Assembly: GCA_019186985.1 (NCBI GenBank)
Contig: JABARQ010000020.1
Span: 62,001 to 126,000 of the forward strand
Length of the DNA: 64,000 nucleotides
Source of the DNA: Prosthecobacter sp.
Lineage (GTDB): Bacteria; Verrucomicrobiota; Verrucomicrobiia; Verrucomicrobiales; Verrucomicrobiaceae
Direction: 5' to 3'
Both the position numbers and the translations under genes were made by a program. The notes below the pieces were generated by a model, which saw only the letters and a program-made list of their open reading frames with translations, was not told the DNA's origin and ran no database searches. This document shows, piece after piece, positions 51,160-64,000 of the stretch. Each line of letters begins with the position of its first letter. Position 1 is the stretch's first letter.

Positions 51160-52074
51160 CTAGGCCCCGGCCAGCGCCGTGCCTCGGTTCAGCAGGTCCA
51201 GGAAACGCTGCTCAAACGGCTCCTCGGCGCCACATTGCATGAAGTCGATCTGATGCGCCGCACACTCACGGGAAAGCTCGTCACAGAAGGCGTCAAAGGC
51301 GTCCGTGTAGCGCTGCACATCGCGGCGAGTCAGCCAGAAACGACGGCGTTCCCCCGTCTCCACCTCATCCAGCTCCACCTCGCCCTCAAGAACCGGCGAC
51401 CGCTCCTCGGGATGCAGGATCTGTAGAAAATGGCATTCCCCAGGCCAGACTGCGGCGCGCTTCACGGACTCGGCCGCCGTGCTGACGTCACGTCCGAAAA
51501 AGTCCGAGATGACAAAGATCACCCCGTATCGCTGCCGGTTCGGATGAAAGTCCGCAAAACTCCGCTGCAAGTCGGTCAGGCCACCGAATTTGAGCCTCGT
51601 CACGGTCTGGATGATCTTTTCAATGCTGCCCTGGCCGCGTACCGGCGGAAGCTCCTGTCGAACAGTGTCGCTCAGGGAATACAGACTGACCCTCTGCTGT
51701 GCTGCCAGGCCCAGGTAGGCCAGGGCCACGGCAAACCGCAGCGCCTGCCTGCGCTTGCCCCCATAGGGCTGGGACATCGAGCCGCTGGTGTCGATCAGCA
51801 GGTGCAGGTTCAGCTCCTGCGTCTCCTCGTAAAGCCTGACAAAAAGCTTGTCCAGACGCGCATAGAGCCTCCAGTCGATCGCCCGGTAATCCTCCCTCGG
51901 GGTGTAGTGACGGTAGTCCTTGAACTCCCTCGAAAACCCCGTGGCCGGCGATGATTGCGTGCCCCGTCGGCTCAGCGCACGCCGCTTGCGCAGCCTCACC
52001 GCCAGCGACCTCAGCCGATCGAGAAAGGCGGAGTCAAAGAGGTCTTCGCGGACAATGGAGGCGTCTTCAGGCAC
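51160..52074 (-). CDS. DUF58 domain protein
   Basis: A 304-residue protein with the DUF58 core: DYRHYTPREDYRAIDWRLYARLDKLFVRLYEE, followed by a von Willebrand A-like domain with the DTSGSM metal-site motif (LLIDTSGSMSQPYGG). In many genomes it forms an operon with a MoxR AAA ATPase and membrane vWA proteins that act in cofactor or complex assembly; here those partners are absent from the window. It ends 2 bp from the convergent RlmM-like gene. Confidence 0.92.
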   Translation of the reverse strand: MPEDASIVREDLFDSAFLDRLRSLAVRLRKRRALSRRGTQSSPATGFSREFKDYRHYTPREDYRAIDWRLYARLDKLFVRLYEETQELNLHLLIDTSGSMSQPYGGKRRQALRFAVALAYLGLAAQQRVSLYSLSDTVRQELPPVRGQGSIEKIIQTVTRLKFGGLTDLQRSFADFHPNRQRYGVIFVISDFFGRDVSTAAESVKRAAVWPGECHFLQILHPEERSPVLEGEVELDEVETGERRRFWLTRRDVQRYTDAFDAFCDELSRECAAHQIDFMQCGAEEPFEQRFLDLLNRGTALAGA

Positions 52075-52156
52075 GGCACTCCCTTAAATGGTGGCACGCC
52101 TTTTGGGAAGGGCGGAATCATGCCCGCCACCCCCTCTTCCTTCAATCACCTGAAAA

Positions 52157-52606
52157 TCAGGCAACCACCGCGTCACGCGAACGGAAGCTCGACAGGAAGC
52201 TGGCGGCGTCCGGTGCAGCAGACTCGCTCATCGCATCCGCAATCTGGCTCTGCAGTTCACCACGGATGCGGCTCACGAGATCCAGTCCCTTGGAAGTCAC
52301 TCGCACCATGACCTTGCGACGGTCATCAATCGCATGTGTGCGCTCCATGTAACCCAGCTTTTCCAGACGGTCGACCAGGCCGGTGGCCGCCGCCGTCGAA
52401 TGGGACATCTTGCGCGCAATGTCCGTCATGGTCAGCTCCTTGGCCGAAGCCAGATAGCTGAGCAGGAAAAATTGCGCGAAGGAGATGTTATCACGGTTCA
52501 GTTCCCGCGACAGGTTCAGCAAAAACTCCCTCTGGCTGAAAAGGATGAAGTCAGCCAGTTTAGCATGATCTTTGCTTTGAGGCGAAGCTGGAGTCGGAGA
52601 GGGCAT
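52157..52606 (-). CDS. MarR-family transcriptional regulator
   Basis: A 149-residue winged-helix repressor. The recognition part reads LTMTDIARKMSHSTAAATGLVDRLEKLGYMERTHAIDDRRKVMVRVTSKG, with the D-x-R-x wing (DDRRKV). Its ligand and target are unknown; the divergent and downstream neighbours give no clue. A candidate promoter lies 40-70 bp upstream in the AT-rich gap. Confidence 0.92.
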   Translation of the reverse strand: MPSPTPASPQSKDHAKLADFILFSQREFLLNLSRELNRDNISFAQFFLLSYLASAKELTMTDIARKMSHSTAAATGLVDRLEKLGYMERTHAIDDRRKVMVRVTSKGLDLVSRIRGELQSQIADAMSESAAPDAASFLSSFRSRDAVVA

Positions 52607-52834
52607 ACCAGGAGAGTTATGGTTATCGAGACTTTTTACGGTGTGACGAAAGATAAGGCTCTGTATGGTTAAATCAACCTAAAAACTATAAAATCCGTAA
52701 ATAGACAGTAAAAGCGCTCAGTTTTTCTCAGAAGCGAGAAATTAATGATTCCGTATTATCAATGATGAGGGTCTTTTGGCAAGCTTTTTTCAAACCAAGC
52801 CCCCACTTTTTTAAAACTCCAAGCCCCTCCAAGA
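52607..52834. other. AT-rich 228-bp intergenic region
   Basis: The gap between the MarR start (minus) and the 3' end of the next minus-strand gene is clearly richer in A and T than the coding DNA. Apart from the candidate MarR promoter, I see no gene and no strong hairpin with a T-run. Confidence 0.6.
52650..52677 (-). promoter_or_regulatory. candidate promoter of the MarR-type regulator
   Basis: On the minus strand TTGATT (52677-52672) and TATCTT (52655-52650) are 16 bp apart, about 50 bp before ATG 52606. Both boxes match the consensus at four of six positions. No obvious MarR-type inverted repeat overlaps it. Confidence 0.35.
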
Positions 52835-55177
52835 TCAATCCAGCATCAGAATCTCGAAGAGATTGTGCCTTCGATCAGTCCACAATGGAATGGATTCAGG
52901 CTCCTGATTTTCAGGCCGATCAGCAGGAATAGTTTTTAAAAAATCATCAGTCCTGGCAAGCAGCAGGTAATCCGTCGAATCGTGGTCACCATCTTCCTCC
53001 GTGATCACTCGGGTGGTTTTCCAGCCCATGTCAGCCGCCAGGCCTTCCACCACGGGTGCCAGAGCGAGGTAGCTGTTCGTGACATGCACCACGATCACCC
53101 CTCCGGGTTTCATGTGACGACGATAGATGGCAAAGGCCTCCCGGGTCAGCAGGTGTACTGGGATGGCATCCCCGCTGAAGGCATCCAGCAGCAGCACATC
53201 GAAGCCTTGATCCGGCTCACGCTCCAGCATCAGCCTCGCATCCCCCAGGACCGTGGTCACCTTCGCATCACGCCTCTCGGCATCCGCCAGATAGGTGAAG
53301 TGCTTCCGGGCCAGCCGTGGAATCTCGGGGTTGATCTCATAAAAGCGCCACTGCTGGCCGGCCTTCGCATAACAAGCCGTCGTACCAGCGCCCATCCCCA
53401 CGATGGCCACCCGCGCATCCGCCCTGCCCTTGAGATTGTCCAGCGCCTTGCCGATGCCGGTCTGATGACCGTAATAAGTGACGGGCTCCTCCCGGTAGGC
53501 TGCCCCCATGTTCTGCATGCCGTGAATGATGCCGCCATGGGTCAGAGTCCGGTAGGTGTTTTCCAGGCCGTCATCCCAGTCCTCGTCCACATTCACCGCT
53601 CCATAAAAATTGCGCACCCGCTCCAGCCTCTCATCCACCGCCAGCGTCTGACGTTGGAGCCGGTGAAATCCCAGGATGCCGAAGATCAGTGAAACCAGGA
53701 TGACCAGGGCATGAACGACACGCTGCGGACGACGGTAGATCAGATAGGCCAGCAGCAGGACCACGATCCCGGCCGCCGCCCCCACAGACATGGCCCTCCC
53801 ACTCTCCAGGGCCTCCAGAGATCGGCGGGTCGTGTCCGGCAACAGGGTGACCCAGCCGCCTGCCTCCTTCACGGTTCCTGCCAGGATTTCAGCCAGCGAG
53901 GAAAGCCAGGTCGCCTTGTCAGCCTCATGGGCAACATATCCTCCTGCAAGCCAGGACAATCCCAGTCCTGCAAGGATCAGCGCGGCCAGGGTGATCCCCA
54001 GCCGTTTCACGCCTGTCCGCCAGACCCAGGCGACCCAGGCCAGCCAGGCGATCACATAGCAGGCGATCAAACCCAGCGGCCACTCCAGGTAGGTCACAAA
54101 CACTCGCGGCGCCACCAGGCTGACCAGCAGGCCTCCAAGCGCCCCGCCCAGGGACATCAGAAGATAAAACTCCGTCAGGTGCCCGGCCTTCGGCTTCAGC
54201 CTGGCCAGCTCCCCGTGGCAGACCATGCAGGCGAGAAAAACCGCCGCAAAGCTCCAGCCCAGCGCAAACAAATAGTTCGGCATCGGCTCGGCCGTCAGCG
54301 TCAGCTTCTTGCCCAGAGCCGTCACAAACAGCACGGCCATCGTCGGCAGCGCCCAGGCCCAGCTCGCATACCAGCGCTCATGCTCAAAGCAGATGATGAA
54401 GCTCAGCAGATACAGGCTCAGCGGCACCACCCACATGAACGGGACCACGGCCACATCCTGCGACACATGATTCGTCGTCGCCAGCAGCAGCGCACTCGCG
54501 GCGGCGGGCAGGATCACCCACAGCAGACGCCTGCCCCAGGAGGGCGCCGCCACGGGCTCAGCCGCTGACGGCGGCTCCTCGGTCGCCGGAGCCTCGGCCA
54601 GATTTCGCGTCCGCTTCACCAGCCAGAGCGACATCATGGCAAACACCACGAAGCCGGCCGACCAGATCCAGGTCTGCGTCGTCACATCCCAGACGGGCTC
54701 GATCAGGAAGGGGTAGCTCAGCAGCGCGGCGAGCGATCCCAGGTTGGAAAGGGCGTACAACCGCCACGGGCTCCTTCCCGGCATGGCCCGCGTGAACCAC
54801 ACCTGGGTCAGCGGACTGGTGCTGGAAAGCACGAAGTAAGGCAGGCCCACCGTGCCCAGCAGAAGCAGCAGAATGCGACCCGCTGGAGGCTCACCCCCTG
54901 TTGGCTTCCAGAAATCCCCCGGCACAATCGGCAGAAAGGCCAGAGCCCCCAGGATCAGCGCCGAATGAACCAGCCACTGAGCCCGCGGACGAAGCCGCGA
55001 CAGGCCGTGCGCATAGGCATAACCACCGAACAGAACAACCTGAAAGAAAAGCATGCAGGTCGTCCACACGCCGGGACTGCCGCCAAACCACGGCAGGATG
55101 AACTTGCTGATCACCGGCTGGACTTGAAACAACAGGAAGGCGCTGAGCAGGCTCAGCAGGGAGAAAAGCAGGTACAT
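52835..55177 (-). CDS. fused membrane/spermidine-synthase-like protein
   Basis: A 780-residue protein. The N-terminal about 520 residues form many membrane helices (two blocks separated by a Glu/Pro-rich linker near 200). The C-terminal about 230 residues have a class-I SAM fold of the spermidine synthase type: HGMQNMGAAYREEPVTYYGHQTGIGKAL, VAIVGMGAGTTACYAKAGQQWRFYEINPE, VLLLDAFSGDAIPVHLLTREAF. Such fused proteins are widely annotated as spermidine synthase but an aminopropyl acceptor has rarely been shown, so polyamine synthesis should not be assumed. Confidence 0.87.
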   Translation of the reverse strand: MYLLFSLLSLLSAFLLFQVQPVISKFILPWFGGSPGVWTTCMLFFQVVLFGGYAYAHGLSRLRPRAQWLVHSALILGALAFLPIVPGDFWKPTGGEPPAGRILLLLLGTVGLPYFVLSSTSPLTQVWFTRAMPGRSPWRLYALSNLGSLAALLSYPFLIEPVWDVTTQTWIWSAGFVVFAMMSLWLVKRTRNLAEAPATEEPPSAAEPVAAPSWGRRLLWVILPAAASALLLATTNHVSQDVAVVPFMWVVPLSLYLLSFIICFEHERWYASWAWALPTMAVLFVTALGKKLTLTAEPMPNYLFALGWSFAAVFLACMVCHGELARLKPKAGHLTEFYLLMSLGGALGGLLVSLVAPRVFVTYLEWPLGLIACYVIAWLAWVAWVWRTGVKRLGITLAALILAGLGLSWLAGGYVAHEADKATWLSSLAEILAGTVKEAGGWVTLLPDTTRRSLEALESGRAMSVGAAAGIVVLLLAYLIYRRPQRVVHALVILVSLIFGILGFHRLQRQTLAVDERLERVRNFYGAVNVDEDWDDGLENTYRTLTHGGIIHGMQNMGAAYREEPVTYYGHQTGIGKALDNLKGRADARVAIVGMGAGTTACYAKAGQQWRFYEINPEIPRLARKHFTYLADAERRDAKVTTVLGDARLMLEREPDQGFDVLLLDAFSGDAIPVHLLTREAFAIYRRHMKPGGVIVVHVTNSYLALAPVVEGLAADMGWKTTRVITEEDGDHDSTDYLLLARTDDFLKTIPADRPENQEPESIPLWTDRRHNLFEILMLD

Positions 55178-58904: not shown

Positions 58905-59007
58905 TCCCAGCAAAGCTTCACCACCTCTGAAAAGAAGATGCGGGAAAATGTAAAAAAGCCGTTGCTTATTCACCCCATCTTGCCAGACTCGCGGCCCTCC
59001 CAAACGA

Positions 59008-59083
59008 GGCTCGGTAGCTCAGTCGGTAGAGCAGGGGATTGAAAATCCCCGTGTCGGCGGTTCGATTCCGTCCCGAGCCACCA
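59008..59083 (+). tRNA. tRNA-Phe (GAA), with encoded CCA
   Basis: A full cloverleaf: acceptor GGCTCGG pairs with CCGAGCC, a D-arm with GCTC...GAGC, an anticodon arm GGGGA-TTGAAAA-TCCCC with anticodon GAA at 59041-59043, and T-arm GGCGG-TTCGATT-CCGTC (one end mismatch of G-T type). The CCA end (59081-59083) is encoded. A gene-poor, lower-GC region follows directly, the usual pattern for a tRNA used as an integration site. Confidence 0.96.
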
Positions 59084-59436
59084 CCGCTTATAAAGCGTTG
59101 GTTTTCAAAGGATTACAAAGACTCAAGGGGTGCTTTTGCCATCCAGTCCTAAAAATAGTTCAAAAGATTTCTCGAACTTTGCATCGTTCACATGCTTTGC
59201 GTTGTTGGCATCTTTTCCTGCTAATCGCCCCTCCCTAACGAGCATCAAAGATTTGAGAAATGGGGCGGCAACCAACGCCCCATTCACTTTGCGACACGCT
59301 TTTGCGTGTTCTTCATGGGTAGTTCCTGATTGATCCTGATCGCATCCCATGCCTCAAATTGGATGGAGCGCACCGCCTGAGTTTGGGATTCAGAGGTTCA
59401 AACCGGGGCGATGCCCATCAATCCGGAAAACCCACC
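59084..59436. other. 353-bp stretch between tRNA-Phe and the first island gene
   Basis: I see no convincing gene. A 75-codon minus-strand frame (59123-59350) and a 67-codon plus-strand frame (59130-59333) lie opposite each other; neither has a recognisable motif or start region. The stretch at 59360-59416 looks like the anticodon and T arms of a broken tRNA-Pro but cannot fold into one. Confidence 0.5.
59085..59105 (+). terminator. weak hairpin after tRNA-Phe
   Basis: CGCTT (59085-59089) pairs with AAGCG (59093-59097) over a 3-nt loop, followed by TTGGTTTT. It is a plausible but weak terminator for the tRNA transcript. Confidence 0.4.
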
Positions 59437-60531
59437 ATGAAAACCAGCCCCAGCAAAAAGAAGCCAGCCGCAATTCTAAAGCATCAAGACTTTGAGATGG
59501 CCTACGACCTCAAAAAAGAGCGTCGGAAGTGTCGGGCGAAGGGCGGCCAAAGCAAAATGGGCGTGGCGTGGATCGAACACGGCCGACTGAAGGCTGTTCC
59601 AAGCTCCCACTTTCAGAAGCAGCCAGCACCTCCATCAAAGTCGGTTGAAATGTACGAGCGATGGCTTGACGAAATCGGCTTGAATTCCGGCCGCGAGGCC
59701 CGTTCGAAAGAACCCAGGCGTATGCCTGCCTCTTCGGCAAAATATCGGCTTTGCCTTATCGTCTCCCGGGGAAGCAGCTGGGATATCTGGAACTATCAGG
59801 AGGTTCAGAAGAGCTTCGCGGCGAAAAGGAAACGGAAAGCGGACCGGTTGGCATACACCCTCCCTGAGGAGTTTACCATTTATTCCACCGATCTGGCACC
59901 CGACGTCTGGCAGGCTTCGCAGGATAAAACGGTCACGGAACGATGCCTGGAATGCGCCCGGGCTTTGCTGGGGGAAGCCGCCAGTCTCTACGAAATGGGC
60001 TGTGTTTATCTCGAAGGTTTTGAAGAGGCCTACGACCTTTGGAAAGGAGAGCCTCCCCATGAATTGACGACAAACCAGAGCCTGGCACTCGCCGCCTCAG
60101 ACCATCTCAAAAATAGCCTCGAGGAGATAAAGCGGATGCTCTATACCTTCACCACATTTGAGATGCGAAAAAAGGTTCCCGATGCCGCAGTCGCATTGAG
60201 GCAAGGATGGATCGTCGGCAGCTGGCTGGCCAAGGCAAGGGCCATCCTCACGAATGCGGAATCCTTGAAAATGGCCAGCAACCAGGGCATTTTTTCGAAG
60301 TCACGTTCCAATTTTTGGGATGACCTCGTCAGGGCTACAGAAAACCGAGGCAAAAGCGCCAAGGAGCTTTTTGAAGGACTCAGGAACAAGCCCGACCTGG
60401 ATTACCCAGACACAAAGCTCTCCATTGACGAGATGGGCAGGCTGGTTCGAGGCAACGGCAGCCGGATTCAATTCACGAGCTTCATGGCCTCCCTCTCCAG
60501 AGCCCGCCAGCGCCGGCTGAAAAAAAATTAA
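59437..60531 (+). CDS. unknown accessory-region protein
   Basis: A 364-residue, strongly basic and charged protein with no recognised family. The first 50 residues are Lys-rich (MKTSPSKKKPAAILK). A helical middle follows (VTERCLECARALLGEAASLYEMGCVYLEGFEEAYDLWKG; two Cys four apart). The end is basic (MASLSRARQRRLKKN). Basic ends suggest nucleic-acid contact, but that is a guess. Codon use is visibly less GC-biased than in the core genes. The frame is open upstream to 59359, but the first residues there read through the tRNA-like debris, so ATG 59437 is used. Confidence 0.65.
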   Translation: MKTSPSKKKPAAILKHQDFEMAYDLKKERRKCRAKGGQSKMGVAWIEHGRLKAVPSSHFQKQPAPPSKSVEMYERWLDEIGLNSGREARSKEPRRMPASSAKYRLCLIVSRGSSWDIWNYQEVQKSFAAKRKRKADRLAYTLPEEFTIYSTDLAPDVWQASQDKTVTERCLECARALLGEAASLYEMGCVYLEGFEEAYDLWKGEPPHELTTNQSLALAASDHLKNSLEEIKRMLYTFTTFEMRKKVPDAAVALRQGWIVGSWLAKARAILTNAESLKMASNQGIFSKSRSNFWDDLVRATENRGKSAKELFEGLRNKPDLDYPDTKLSIDEMGRLVRGNGSRIQFTSFMASLSRARQRRLKKN

Positions 60532-60598
60532 CGCATACGCGCTTGGTTAATTTTCGTGAGGTGACGATGACACGCAGGTGCGTTTCTTCACGGTCGCC

Positions 60599-60793
60599 AT
60601 GAATAACCATGCTGACACCCACACACAGTCTCCCTTTCTAACGCCGGCCGAACTGGCCGCACGCTGGCAGGTAAGCACCTTGACCCTCCGAAGATGGCGG
60701 AAGGAAGGAAGACTCAAAACCATCAATATCGGGCGGGCAGTTCGATTCGAACTGACGGAGGTGCAACGCGTCGAGAGGGATGCACAGGCTTGA
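60599..60793 (+). CDS. small excisionase/MerR-like helix-turn-helix protein
   Basis: A 64-residue protein. Its core TPAELAARWQVSTLTLRRWR (then KEGRLKTINIGRAVRFELTEV) is the HTH_17 form of winged helix found in excisionases and control proteins of mobile elements. The start is ATG 60599 (MNNHAD); an earlier ATG at 60578 is possible. It follows the unknown gene by 67 bp and precedes another HTH gene by 27 bp, which looks like an integrative-element control cluster. No integrase is visible. Confidence 0.75.
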   Translation: MNNHADTHTQSPFLTPAELAARWQVSTLTLRRWRKEGRLKTINIGRAVRFELTEVQRVERDAQA

Positions 60794-60820
60794 AACCTCC
60801 AACATTCGACCTTCAAGCTC

Positions 60821-61180
60821 ATGTTGCACCATCTCCCAAAAAAGCCGGGGCGCCCGTCGAAGCGAAATCCAGAATTCGAAGCGAGGCTTTTCAAGCTCCT
60901 GGAAAATGGCTGGTCTCGCAGAAGAGCAGCCATTCGCTGCAAAGTGTCCCCGAAAACAATCCAGCGTTGGATTCGCCAAAGCACCGCTTTCCGTCGCCAG
61001 GTTCTAAATGCTGAGGCGATCGGACTGCCGAAAGCCGCATTTCAAACATGGATCAGTCATCCCTTTCGGGGGCAGCGCCCACCGCGTAAACGGGGAAAAC
61101 GAGGCAGGCCATATCCACTTCCATCTTACTGTATTCCAACGAATTACCGCTACATTCATCCGTCCAGGTGGACCCGGTAA
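60821..61180 (+). CDS. helix-turn-helix protein, terminase-small-subunit-like
   Basis: A 119-residue basic protein. It has a GRPSK start and a homeodomain-like HTH (FEARLFKLLENGWSRRRAAI and CKVSPKTIQRWIRQSTAF), features shared with phage terminase small subunits and transposon-linked proteins, followed by an Arg/Lys/Pro-rich tail (GQRPPRKRGKRGRPYPLP). A role in DNA recognition is inferred; the exact family is open. Confidence 0.65.
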   Translation: MLHHLPKKPGRPSKRNPEFEARLFKLLENGWSRRRAAIRCKVSPKTIQRWIRQSTAFRRQVLNAEAIGLPKAAFQTWISHPFRGQRPPRKRGKRGRPYPLPSYCIPTNYRYIHPSRWTR

Positions 61181-61422
61181 TAAATGACTGGGGGTTTTGT
61201 ACCCATGCCCCCGCGCACCTGCGCGCGCGCGGAAAAAAAACACGGTTTTGCCCCCCTAAAAGGGTCAATTTCTTCCAATGAATTTAGTGCTTATAGCCTG
61301 ATGTCGTAAACGAAACTGATCAAACCGATGACCGGTAAAAGAACCGGTTCTTTTACCGGTTCTTTTACCCGTCATCGGCAGGGTCAATCAGGCAATCATT
61401 TCGGCCTCATTCACGCATTCAA
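61181..61422. other. 242-bp control region with palindromes
   Basis: No gene. It holds a GGGGG...CCCCC pairing near 61191-61216, an alternating CG tract near 61216-61236, an A-run near 61240, and the palindrome array at 61325-61378. Its place before a replication-like gene makes it a candidate origin or operator region. Confidence 0.5.
61325..61378. repeat. nested palindrome array
   Basis: GGTAAAAGAACC (61334-61345) is followed at once by its inverse GGTTCTTTTACC (61346-61357), a perfect 24-bp palindrome, and then by a second direct copy of GGTTCTTTTACC (61358-61369). The whole is framed by the inverted pair CCGATGAC (61325-61332) and GTCATCGG (61371-61378). It lies 45 bp before the start of the next gene. 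Confidence 0.9.
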
Positions 61423-62538
61423 GTGACTGCCCATTACTTCCAGTTTCCCATCTCAGCCTTGTGCTATGGAATGAACAGGGACAACCGCTGGATCCATGTC
61501 GCAGCATACGCCAGCTTGCATTATGGCCGTGTCCTTGCGGACAAAACCCCAGACGAAGAGTTGAAGAACTGCTTGTCGGATTTTTCTGCCTGCAACCCAG
61601 GAGCTGAGGTGGAAGCAGGCAACCCCGATCATCAGAGCCTTGTTCTCGGTCTGTCTCGTCTTTTACCCAAGGTTGCTTACACCATCGAGCAGCTGCTCAG
61701 TTTCGCCCAGGAAGTCAAAAGACACTGCGATCGGCACCCAAACCCTCAGGTGAGAGTCCGGCAGGACATCTGGAAGAACACCTTTGACGCCGAAACTTCA
61801 AAGCATCAATTGTCTTTCAAGGAGTTCGCCGTGCTGTGCGCCATCTACGCGGCCATCGGGAAAAAAAGCTATGCCAAGATCTCCCACGACTACATCCGCT
61901 GCCTGGCTTCGGGTCATGTCAATTTTAGCGAATTCATCTCCAGGGATTCAGAGCCATGCACAGACTCACTCCACCTGTCCAAACGCCAGGTCCGCAAAAT
62001 CATTGACGATCTCGAGGCGAACAGATTCTTCAGCAAGTTCACCTACAATCGAGGTGAGTGTTTTTACTCCAACCGATTGATGCGGGCTGCGCTTTCCGGC
62101 ATGATTTGCGCGAGAAAGACCAGGAAACTGGAAACTTTGGCGGCTAATCGGAGCCTGGACCAGGCAGACTCCCATGCCATCAAAAGGAGAGTTCAAGAAG
62201 CATCGGCTCCATTTCGACACATGAAGGATTTCTCTCGGAGCGACACCTTTCCGGGAGGAAACACCTTCCAACCGAGAAAAATGCCCGTTCACCCACCGAC
62301 ACCGGCCACCCCGAAATACCCCGACAAGCAGCGCCAGGGACAGGCCGGATTGAAGCAGGGTGAAATGTTCATTCCAAAAGCATCAGCTGCATTTCCAAAG
62401 CAAAAGCCGTCGCAGGAATTCAAATGGGACGACACCATTCCTAAAGGCAGCGGCTACTTCATGAATCTGCTAAAAGCAGACTCTCTTCCCGCACCACCAG
62501 GCTCCCCCCCTCTACAAAACACGCAGAAAGCGGCCTGA
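61423..62538 (+). CDS. replication-initiator-like protein (putative), accessory
   Basis: A 371-residue protein starting at GTG (ATG 61471 is an alternative). Residues about 125-235 look like a winged helix (LSFKEFAVLCAIYAAIGKKS, then LSKRQVRKIIDDLEANRFFSKFTYNRGECFYSNRLMRAAL), as in plasmid and phage replication initiators; the N terminus (YFQFPISALCYGMNRDNRW) precedes it. The last 120 residues are Pro/Lys-rich and low in complexity. It is preceded by a palindrome array that could be its binding site. The function is inferred, and the family was not recognised. Confidence 0.6.
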   Translation: MTAHYFQFPISALCYGMNRDNRWIHVAAYASLHYGRVLADKTPDEELKNCLSDFSACNPGAEVEAGNPDHQSLVLGLSRLLPKVAYTIEQLLSFAQEVKRHCDRHPNPQVRVRQDIWKNTFDAETSKHQLSFKEFAVLCAIYAAIGKKSYAKISHDYIRCLASGHVNFSEFISRDSEPCTDSLHLSKRQVRKIIDDLEANRFFSKFTYNRGECFYSNRLMRAALSGMICARKTRKLETLAANRSLDQADSHAIKRRVQEASAPFRHMKDFSRSDTFPGGNTFQPRKMPVHPPTPATPKYPDKQRQGQAGLKQGEMFIPKASAAFPKQKPSQEFKWDDTIPKGSGYFMNLLKADSLPAPPGSPPLQNTQKAA

Positions 62539-62699
62539 ATGCAGAGTTCGTTTCGGGTGGGCGTGAAAATGTGATGGGTGGCAGGTCCTCCCAGGGCTTC
62601 GCCATTGTCCCCATCGCAAGCCCAATGCATCCAGCGCATTGGATAGTATAATGCTGCGCGCCGGCAACGGCCGTGACGAAAAAACTCGGCCACAAAGGC

Positions 62700-62819
62700 T
62701 GCCATGGACGGCTAGCACTACGCCTCAGGGCAGACGCCCTTGACTTCCGGCTAGCACTTCCCCTTGCCGGGTGTGCGGTGGACTTGAACCACCCAGTGAG
62801 TGCGCCCTTGCGGGCGCAC
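62700..62819 (-). mobile_element. possible 5' fragment of a group II intron
   Basis: Read on the minus strand from 62819: GTGCGCCC-GCAA-GGGCGCAC, a perfect 8-bp hairpin with a GNRA tetraloop that starts with the GUGCG typical of group II intron 5' ends, then GGTGG-TTCAAGT-CCACC (62793-62777), then AGTGCTAGCCGGAAGTC and a GGGC-hairpin. The preceding exon-side sequence is a terminator with T-run, the usual target of class C introns. No reverse transcriptase and no domain V were found downstream, so it would be a truncated remnant. Confidence 0.4.
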
Positions 62820-62822
62820 CAC

Positions 62823-62857
62823 AAAAAATGCCTGGCTTCCCTCTCGGTCAACCAGGC
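62823..62857 (-). terminator. Rho-independent terminator (minus strand)
   Basis: On the minus strand GCCTGG (from 62857) pairs with CCAGGC (ending at 62830), extended by a G-T and an A-T pair, followed by A and six T (62828-62823). No minus-strand gene that it would serve is recognisable upstream, so it may be a leftover. Confidence 0.6.
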
Positions 62858-63499
62858 CTACGACGCAGATGAGAACAGGGCTGGAGTTCCCTGGCTCTAC
62901 ACACGCCTGCCAACTGTTTGCCGAGGCAGACGCGGGTGCCGCGAAGGTTTCAAGCTTAAACCCTACCGATCTCCTTGCAAGGGTCTTGCAGGCCCGTTTC
63001 CAGCCCTCGTGAGCTGGCTCCGCCTCATCCAGTGATTGTAGCGCTAAATAGTGCCCATGTCAGGCATCGTCAGCTGCATTACTGCTGCAACCCTTTAAAA
63101 CATGGCTCGCACGGTGCCGCTGCCGTAACGATTTTCTCCAATCGTTCCACGCCTTCCTCGACAAGCCAATGCTCGTTGCTGCATTGACCAGTTGCAGTGC
63201 CCCCTCGAACCAGTTGCAAGATGGATGGCCAGTGTCGTTGTAACCGCGGATGCTGCGCATCACTTCCGCAGCGGGTTCGGACCGCTGCTTTTCCAGGGAG
63301 GGGAGACAGCGGGGATAGGCGCTGCGCCTTTTTTAGAACTCTTTTTTTGAGGGTCTTTTTCCAGAGGTCTTTCTATAAACGTTGCCCTGACCTTGCCCCA
63401 GGGTGTCGCCCACCTTTCCGCAACCTTGCCCGTTTCTGCAGCACCTCCGGCACGCGCCAAACCTTTTGCTTTTCACGCCGCGTCCGCCTCTGTGTCCTC

Positions 63500-64000
63500 G
63501 TGTGCGGTCGCCTCAACCAGTTTGCCAAGCTCCCTGCCCTCTCCATCGCCGGCAGGAGCCTTGGCCTGGCCCGGCGCAAATCCAGGGCCCGTGAAGACCG
63601 TAAATCCGCCGTCCAGGTGCTTCACAATATCTGCCCCACGGATTATGCCGACGCCTTCCATCTCGACGCCCGGGATGAACTCGTGCTCGAACCCATGCGC
63701 TTCGGCCTGCTGCCCGCCTGGGCCAGGGGCTGCAAAGCCGAGGTCGCCAAAAAGTTCCTGCACACCTTCAACGCCCGCTGTGAAAGCGTCTTCGACCTCG
63801 CGTCCTTCCGCCTGCCCATCCTGCATCGCCGCTGCCTGATCCCGGTGCGTGGCTGGCACGAATGGCCCTCGCGCAGCTCCCCCTTCTTCATCCATCGCCG
63901 CGACGAGGCTCCCCTGCTCCTCGCCGGCCTCTGGGAGGTCTGGGAAAGCTGCCTGCCCGAAGATGCCGCCGATGGCCCTGTGGTGACCTCGATGAGTGTC
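63500..64000 (+). CDS. SRAP (HMCES/YedK) DNA-protein crosslink protein, cut by window edge
   Basis: The frame opens with GTG TGC GGT CGC (MCGRLNQF), the invariant SRAP start with catalytic Cys2 after Met removal, and runs in phase to 64000. About 167 residues are seen: NICPTDYADAF, EPMRFGLLPAWA, FNARCESVFDLASFRLPILHRRCLIPVRGWHEWP (the Asn and Glu that line the abasic-site pocket) and LLLAGLWEVWES. It forms a thiazolidine crosslink with abasic sites in single-stranded DNA. The C terminus, including the catalytic His, lies beyond the window. It directly borders the presumed island. Confidence 0.93.
   Translation, partial: MCGRLNQFAKLPALSIAGRSLGLARRKSRAREDRKSAVQVLHNICPTDYADAFHLDARDELVLEPMRFGLLPAWARGCKAEVAKKFLHTFNARCESVFDLASFRLPILHRRCLIPVRGWHEWPSRSSPFFIHRRDEAPLLLAGLWEVWESCLPEDAADGPVVTSMSV

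Follow-up and report, generated by a model that had tools for sequence, protein, structure and literature searches.

A 35.5-kb integrative element in the tRNA-Phe gene of Prosthecobacter with a satellite-like gene layout

Analysis of the window (the whole stretch of 64,000 nucleotides examined, corresponding to C16:62001-126000 in a Prosthecobacter genome of 55 contigs and 5.9 Mb, coded G000) indicates that the DNA from position 59054 onward very probably forms the left end of an integrative element of 35,503 bp that resides in tRNA-Phe and works in the manner proposed below. It is a member of a family of plasmid- or satellite-like elements in Verrucomicrobiota about which little is known. We rate it as a tRNA-targeting, satellite-like integrative element with the int-x-xis-rep layout of PICMIs, in which a winged-helix protein replaces the primase; its reading as a satellite or replicating element is plausible.

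The initial annotation of the window had described a change in composition directly behind tRNA-Phe, and this is evident both in GC content per kb, which drops from 0.628 +/- 0.023 over positions 1-59000 to 0.52-0.56 over 59001-63000, and in GC3, which is approximately 0.8 in neighbouring genes and 0.53-0.64 behind the tRNA. Another GC dip, to 0.515, occurs at window positions 52001-53000 within 0.63 sequence. The position of the tRNA, the four open reading frames that follow it and a palindrome array were all real on recheck, and tRNA was the sole match in an Rfam scan of the window region. Position 63499, at which the annotated region had ended, is not a border, as the next cargo gene starts at 63500.

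Borders, integrase and insertion site

The features that define the ends of the element are as follows (positions are those of the window unless prefixed with the contig).

59008..59083, plus strand: tRNA-Phe (GAA), the target gene, intact after insertion (ARAGORN; Rfam tRNA)
59054..59083 (C16:121054), plus strand: attL core TCGGCGGTTCGATTCCGTCCCGAGCCACCA, 30 bp, identical to the tRNA-Phe 3' end (exact match)
59080..59106, plus strand: terminator-like hairpin ACCACCGCTT-ATA-AAGCGTTGGT-TTTC, supplied by the left end of the element (sequence)
C16:155217-156413, minus strand: tyrosine recombinase, 398 aa (PF00589, 1.8e-10; PHROG integrase, 3.4e-43)

When the whole genome was searched with the flagged region, the sole other copy of the core was recovered on the same contig, outside the window at C16:156557-156586, where it forms a perfect 30-bp repeat 35,503 bp downstream of the first. 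The further repeat of the tRNA 3' end that the initial annotation had proposed to look for is therefore present, and no third copy, even a degenerate one, occurs within 9 mismatches across the 35.5-kb stretch. The integrase, the only one in this stretch, lies 143 bp inward of the second copy of att (attR) and retains the complete catalytic set R-K-HxxR-H-Y (R in TGQR, K, HSLRH, H and Y). Direct repeats of a tRNA 3' end at both borders, with an intact integrase beside one of them, are the marks of tyrosine-integrase genomic islands that target tRNA genes, and together they bear out the suggestion of an integrative element whose attL lies at tRNA-Phe. The earlier remark that neither an integrase nor a second att copy is visible is true inside the window, but both are present beyond its end; the element is neither minimal nor dependent on a borrowed integrase, as it spans 35.5 kb and carries an intact one of its own. 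A minimal element ending near 63.5 kb was rejected, since neither att nor integrase is found there. The interval between the integrase and attR contains a pair of direct repeats, GTAACACA[GG/AA]TAGTTGCACAC, of a kind that may serve as integrase arm sites.

Similarity between the two att regions extends over 139 bp at 83%, because each core copy is trailed by a version of the tRNA terminator-like hairpin and its flank, the version behind attR being altered. The same pattern of core plus diverged hairpin occurs at an island in another species of the genus (G029), where the closest integrase in the genus (58-59% identical) also lies beside the same att core. Thus, insertion of the element seems to leave the tRNA and its terminator both restored. 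The contig stops 265 bp past the attR core and the chromosome beyond is unassembled, so that no empty-site counterpart of G000's own locus was seen. Contig C10 was rejected as a continuation past attR: it starts with succinate dehydrogenase, and the flank genes c16-c8 lie 10 kb in, with no link shown. The last gene on C16 was likewise rejected as a native flank gene, as it is without homology to the flank genes of relatives.

In four relatives (G001, G012, G027 and G023) tRNA-Phe is directly followed by native genes, and in G029 and G004 the site is occupied by other islands; these empty sites are those of other species, the exact flank in G000 being unassembled. The att copy of G029 lies beside its integrase, and a contig overlap of 127 bp links it to a second contig in which c13-c14-c15 appear after approximately 2 kb; these are the genes directly behind tRNA-Phe in the empty sites of G001 and G012. 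G004 has an att copy accompanied by a decayed integrase, and the genes after it, c12-c16-c8, are those directly behind tRNA-Phe in the empty site of G027. The filled sites in G029 and G004, set against the empty sites in relatives, therefore identify tRNA-Phe as an insertion hotspot of the genus. The two further islands (G029 contigs C72/C86/C82; G004 contigs C14/C101) differ in content. A synteny comparison, looking for the same genes at this site in all relatives or for the lack of any empty site, left the insertion standing: none of 383 other genomes of the class contains the first gene of the island, the rep-like protein occurs in only 2 of 55 other relatives, and ordinary chromosomal genes lie behind tRNA-Phe in several species of the genus.

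The left-end module and a candidate origin

Behind attL, the window contains the following features.

59437..60531, plus strand: ORF1, 364 aa, pI 9.7, orphan beside attL (open reading frame; no Pfam/PHROG match)
60599..60793, plus strand: xis, 64-aa HTH_17 protein of AlpA/excisionase type (PF12728, 36.7 bits, cut-off 27)
60821..61180, plus strand: homeodomain-type HTH_23 protein, 119 aa (HTH_23 domain match)
61325..61378, no strand: palindrome containing nested 12-bp repeats ACCGGTTCTTTT, upstream of rep; may be an operator or part of an origin (sequence)
61423..62538, plus strand: rep-like gene, 371-aa winged-helix protein, proposed replication initiator (eight-member family; structure model)
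63369..63431, no strand: candidate origin, CTTTCTATAAACGTTGCC motif and two imperfect 20-bp repeats ACGTTGCCCTGACCTTGCCC / ACCTTTCCGCAACCTTGCCC (repeats)

ORF1 is indeed the unknown basic protein that had been described, with no homologue among the 383 class genomes and no sequence similarity to its positional counterpart in G012 (Prosthecobacter sp. Tobar12.5m-G46, JAIPJY010000017.1); a single-sequence structure model was uninformative (pLDDT 39). Its position corresponds to that of the variable gene that related elements carry between int and xis; each of them has a different orphan of 273-364 aa between int and xis/rep (L089:10361-11182; L072:14538-15632; L090:8040-9122; in the window, 59437-60531, between attL and xis). 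The neighbouring gene, called excisionase-like from the start, matches both Pfam HTH_17 and PHROG excisionase (4.9e-9 in each case), and its product is 37% identical to that of the xis-position gene in the element of G363. The next protein does contain a helix-turn-helix, of the HTH_23 type, but its supposed likeness to a terminase small subunit comes down to a PHROG match of 4.8e-6 over that motif; assignment as a terminase small subunit was rejected, as the likeness is limited to the helix-turn-helix and is equally good to those of resolvase type. The HTH_23 protein is 52-53% identical to the product of the gene ahead of rep in G012, making it rep's partner there too, and it is not general to the rep family.

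As for the replication-type protein with its palindrome array, the reading frame and the palindrome are both real, but the protein is without a family match: no Pfam, PHROG or PDB family lies above cut-off, no replication domain is recognised, and a profile search against PDB sequences gave nothing significant. Homologues were found in G012 (46%), G363, G219, G268, G200, G187 and G028, with a weak further match in G564; the protein occurs in 6 of 384 genomes in a class-wide sample and in 5 of 387 in a phylum-wide one, or approximately 1-2% of the Verrucomicrobiota sampled. An AlphaFold model built on eight sequences (pLDDT 75) predicts a winged helix at residues ~128-220 and an N-terminal helical part, and a winged helix so modelled is equally typical of regulators and of initiators.

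The palindrome has 24-bp arms that are 96% complementary, and the 242-nt gap in which it lies folds at z = -4.4. It was not found in G012 and is not general to the rep family, and it may be an operator. Downstream of rep, the CTTTCTATAAACGTTGCC motif occurs once in the window with 0 mismatches; an inverted pair of CTTTCTRTAAAYGTTG lies downstream of rep in G012, and the same motif is found in the window at 63369. Outside the G000 and G012 elements, this motif was absent from the other fetched loci, including a second copy of the SOS operon described below (C17). In G363, approximately five iteron-like units of 16 bp directly follow rep. This recurrence of repeats just downstream of rep makes an origin plausible, and their placement suggests either an origin or a site to which the winged-helix protein binds. 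Intergenic repeat blocks of ~75-120 bp, 70-91% identical, are seen at window 62722-62947; these are also scattered elsewhere in G000 (contigs C15 and C9), occur in four further species of the genus, and are without an Rfam match.

Cargo and the polymerase fusion

The remainder of the element extends past the window, and its recognised cargo is listed here.

63500..64000, continuing to C16:126303 (C16:125500-126303), plus strand: SRAP, first gene of the SOS operon (PF02586, 4.4e-45)
C16:126326-126778: S24/UmuD-like
C16:126784-131037 (L008:6285-10538), directly right of the window: PolY::DnaE fusion, 1417 aa
C16:131034-131786: GIY-YIG
C16:134261-137272: HsdR
C16:137256-140783: HamB (Hachiman)
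C16:140784-141554: HamA (Hachiman)
C16:141551-142774: HsdS
C16:144568-146046: HsdM
C16:147093-148664: second HsdM
C16:149309-149764: RES toxin
C16:149764-150294: Xre/ParS antitoxin
Further cargo: DUF932; metallophosphatase; LysR

Domain matches thus define an SOS mutagenesis operon (SRAP - S24/UmuD-like - PolY::DnaE - GIY-YIG), followed by defence and toxin-antitoxin genes comprising type I restriction-modification, Hachiman (HamA/HamB) and an Xre-RES pair. The fusion joins in one chain a Y-family polymerase, with DADAFF and SIDE present, and a C-family DnaE, with PHP and PDIDIDF present. A second copy of the fusion gene is located at C17:124465-128655, and strong matches to the fusion occur in 16 others among 141 class genomes sampled, most as a single frame of 1371-1577 aa. 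In the passages searched, a 2026 survey of bacterial polymerases (PMC12926913) makes no mention of the fusion. GC3 in the SOS operon is host-like (0.81-0.84), and the island is therefore composite. Among the 26 island proteins scanned, no match was obtained to a relaxase, coupling protein, T4SS, primase, terminase or capsid.

Related elements, proposed mode of action and alternatives

Three related elements could be delimited, all in tRNA-Arg(ACG) and all with rep linked to an integrase gene beside a truncated tRNA copy: those of G268 (9,955 bp, 46-bp repeat), G363 (12,571 bp, 40-bp repeat) and G219 (14.5 kb, 48-bp repeat). The G012 element, whose borders were not delimited, lies at a tRNA-Tyr-like fragment and reads int - 364-aa ORF - xis - small ORF - HTH_23 - rep - helicases. 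G363 has the order int - ORF - xis - rep, in which int/ORF and xis/rep overlap by ATGA, and in G219 and G268 int lies just ahead as well; for the homologues in G028, G187 and G200, no integrase is tied to rep within the stretch read. The 10-kb G268 element (L091:6359-16359, on contig C56 of that genome) contains int, xis, the rep-like gene and, adjoining the last, an HK97-type capsid gene (PHROG 1.9e-37; Pfam 3.3e-21); neither a large terminase nor a portal was recognised in the proteins scanned, and the element is a possible capsid-bearing satellite in Verrucomicrobiota. Searches of plasmids, phages and viral contigs with the rep-like protein, the integrase and the G268 capsid, which reach close relatives only, gave no match.

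The PICMIs of Vibrionaceae contain int, an overlapping variable gene, alpA, a primase and a defence hotspot (PMC10803314). They are recognised by int together with AlpA (PF12728 or PF05930) and by a primase (DUF3987/PF13148 or DUF5906/PF19263), with fis insertion serving as an optional marker in one version of the published model; their variable gene, iolg, overlaps int by 4 nt (ATGA) and is essential for excision (PMC10803314). Our element shares int, a PF12728-type AlpA/xis, a variable gene between the two (with the ATGA overlap in G363), a replication gene behind xis and defence genes thereafter. It differs in its size of 35.5 kb, in lacking a known helper, in its insertion at tRNA-Phe rather than fis, in the winged-helix protein that stands where the primase would be, and in the position of att between int and the ORF1-xis-rep operon. 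As neither primase family was matched among the 26 island proteins, the island was not filed as a PICMI.

By analogy with PICMI-type elements, we infer a cycle of integration, excision, probably replication, and transfer with a helper. The integrase would catalyse recombination between a circular form and the 3' end of tRNA-Phe, so that the tRNA and the terminator-like hairpin are both restored, and the HTH_17 protein would direct excision. Within the circular form, int would lie back to back with the ORF1-xis-rep operon around attP, which would account for their location at opposite ends of the integrated form: because att is on the other side of int, integration parts int from ORF1-xis-HTH-rep, and for this reason the window is without an integrase. 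The winged-helix protein would bind the repeats downstream of its own gene and start replication of the circle, and the toxin-antitoxin pair and defence cargo would help to hold the element in the host. Since no relaxase, conjugation or capsid gene was found, the element presumably moves with a helper, which might be a phage particle or a conjugative element.

The rep-like protein could instead regulate the int/xis operon in an island that simply integrates and excises without replication of its own, an alternative that we consider less likely than an initiator. The part of its fold modelled with confidence is the winged helix, and the structures that match this best are regulators (Fur/Zur, MarR and CRP types, Z 6-8), and no primase, helicase or HUH domain was found in the left-end module. 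Against this, a long conserved N-terminal part (including YxFPISALxYGMNRDNRW) extends beyond the winged helix, the gene follows xis as in satellites, iteron-like repeats directly follow it in G363 and motifs are shared by G000 and G012, and a weak viral match is to a named replication initiator (E 0.033). The element might also be a phage satellite, which a helper phage would induce and which, after excision and replication, would be packaged into the particles of that helper. The PICMI-like order with defence cargo, the int overlap in G363 and the capsid gene of G268 speak for such a lifestyle, which we regard as tentative, as no packaging, capsid or primase gene was found in the G000 element, its length exceeds that of the delimited relatives, and viral contigs and phage genomes yielded no relative in searches of limited reach. 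The cfPICIs (named in PMC11389934) resemble G268, with its int, xis, rep and HK97 capsid in a 10-kb tRNA element; in contrast, no capsid or packaging gene was found in the G000 island, and G268 is without a recognised large terminase or portal.

Carriage by a conjugative helper, as an IME with only an oriT or as an ICE remnant, fits the integrase, toxin-antitoxin pair and defence genes, and such elements may be without a relaxase (PMC11389934). With these hitchers the island shares its own integration and an inferred need for a helper, but it differs in that no relaxase family, coupling protein or T4SS conjugation gene was matched in the island proteins that were scanned, and we judge this reading unlikely. 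Serial accretion of islands at the tRNA, with the module at 59-63.5 kb a separate dead element, seems comparably improbable: composite base composition, repeated use of the site in the genus and the existence of related tRNA-Phe islands without this rep module are in its favour, but the 35.5 kb contains a single integrase and two att copies, and the module genes are intact. The preferred reading, an integrative element with a satellite-like module, shares with tyrosine-integrase genomic and defence islands the duplicated tRNA 3' end, the terminal int and the restriction-modification, Hachiman and toxin-antitoxin cargo, and differs from them in its additional xis-HTH-rep module with a candidate origin and in the PolY::DnaE operon.

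A literature search returned nothing on Prosthecobacter islands, and Verrucomicrobia appear with phage satellites only in passing mentions. We tentatively raise the possibility of a new Verrucomicrobiota-wide family of phage satellites or integrative plasmids, organised as int - variable gene - xis - winged-helix initiator with an iteron-like origin. If true, the phylum could thereby gain its first described satellite family, the winged-helix protein could represent a new class of initiator, and the cargo would range from a capsid of the element's own (G268) to defence islands and a mutasome. With borders, integration sites, a candidate initiator and a candidate origin in hand, the excision, replication and helper dependence of the family are directly testable. 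The island also joins a complete SOS mutagenesis operon, with its two-polymerase fusion, to anti-phage systems, and in this way may connect induced mutation with mobile elements and defence.
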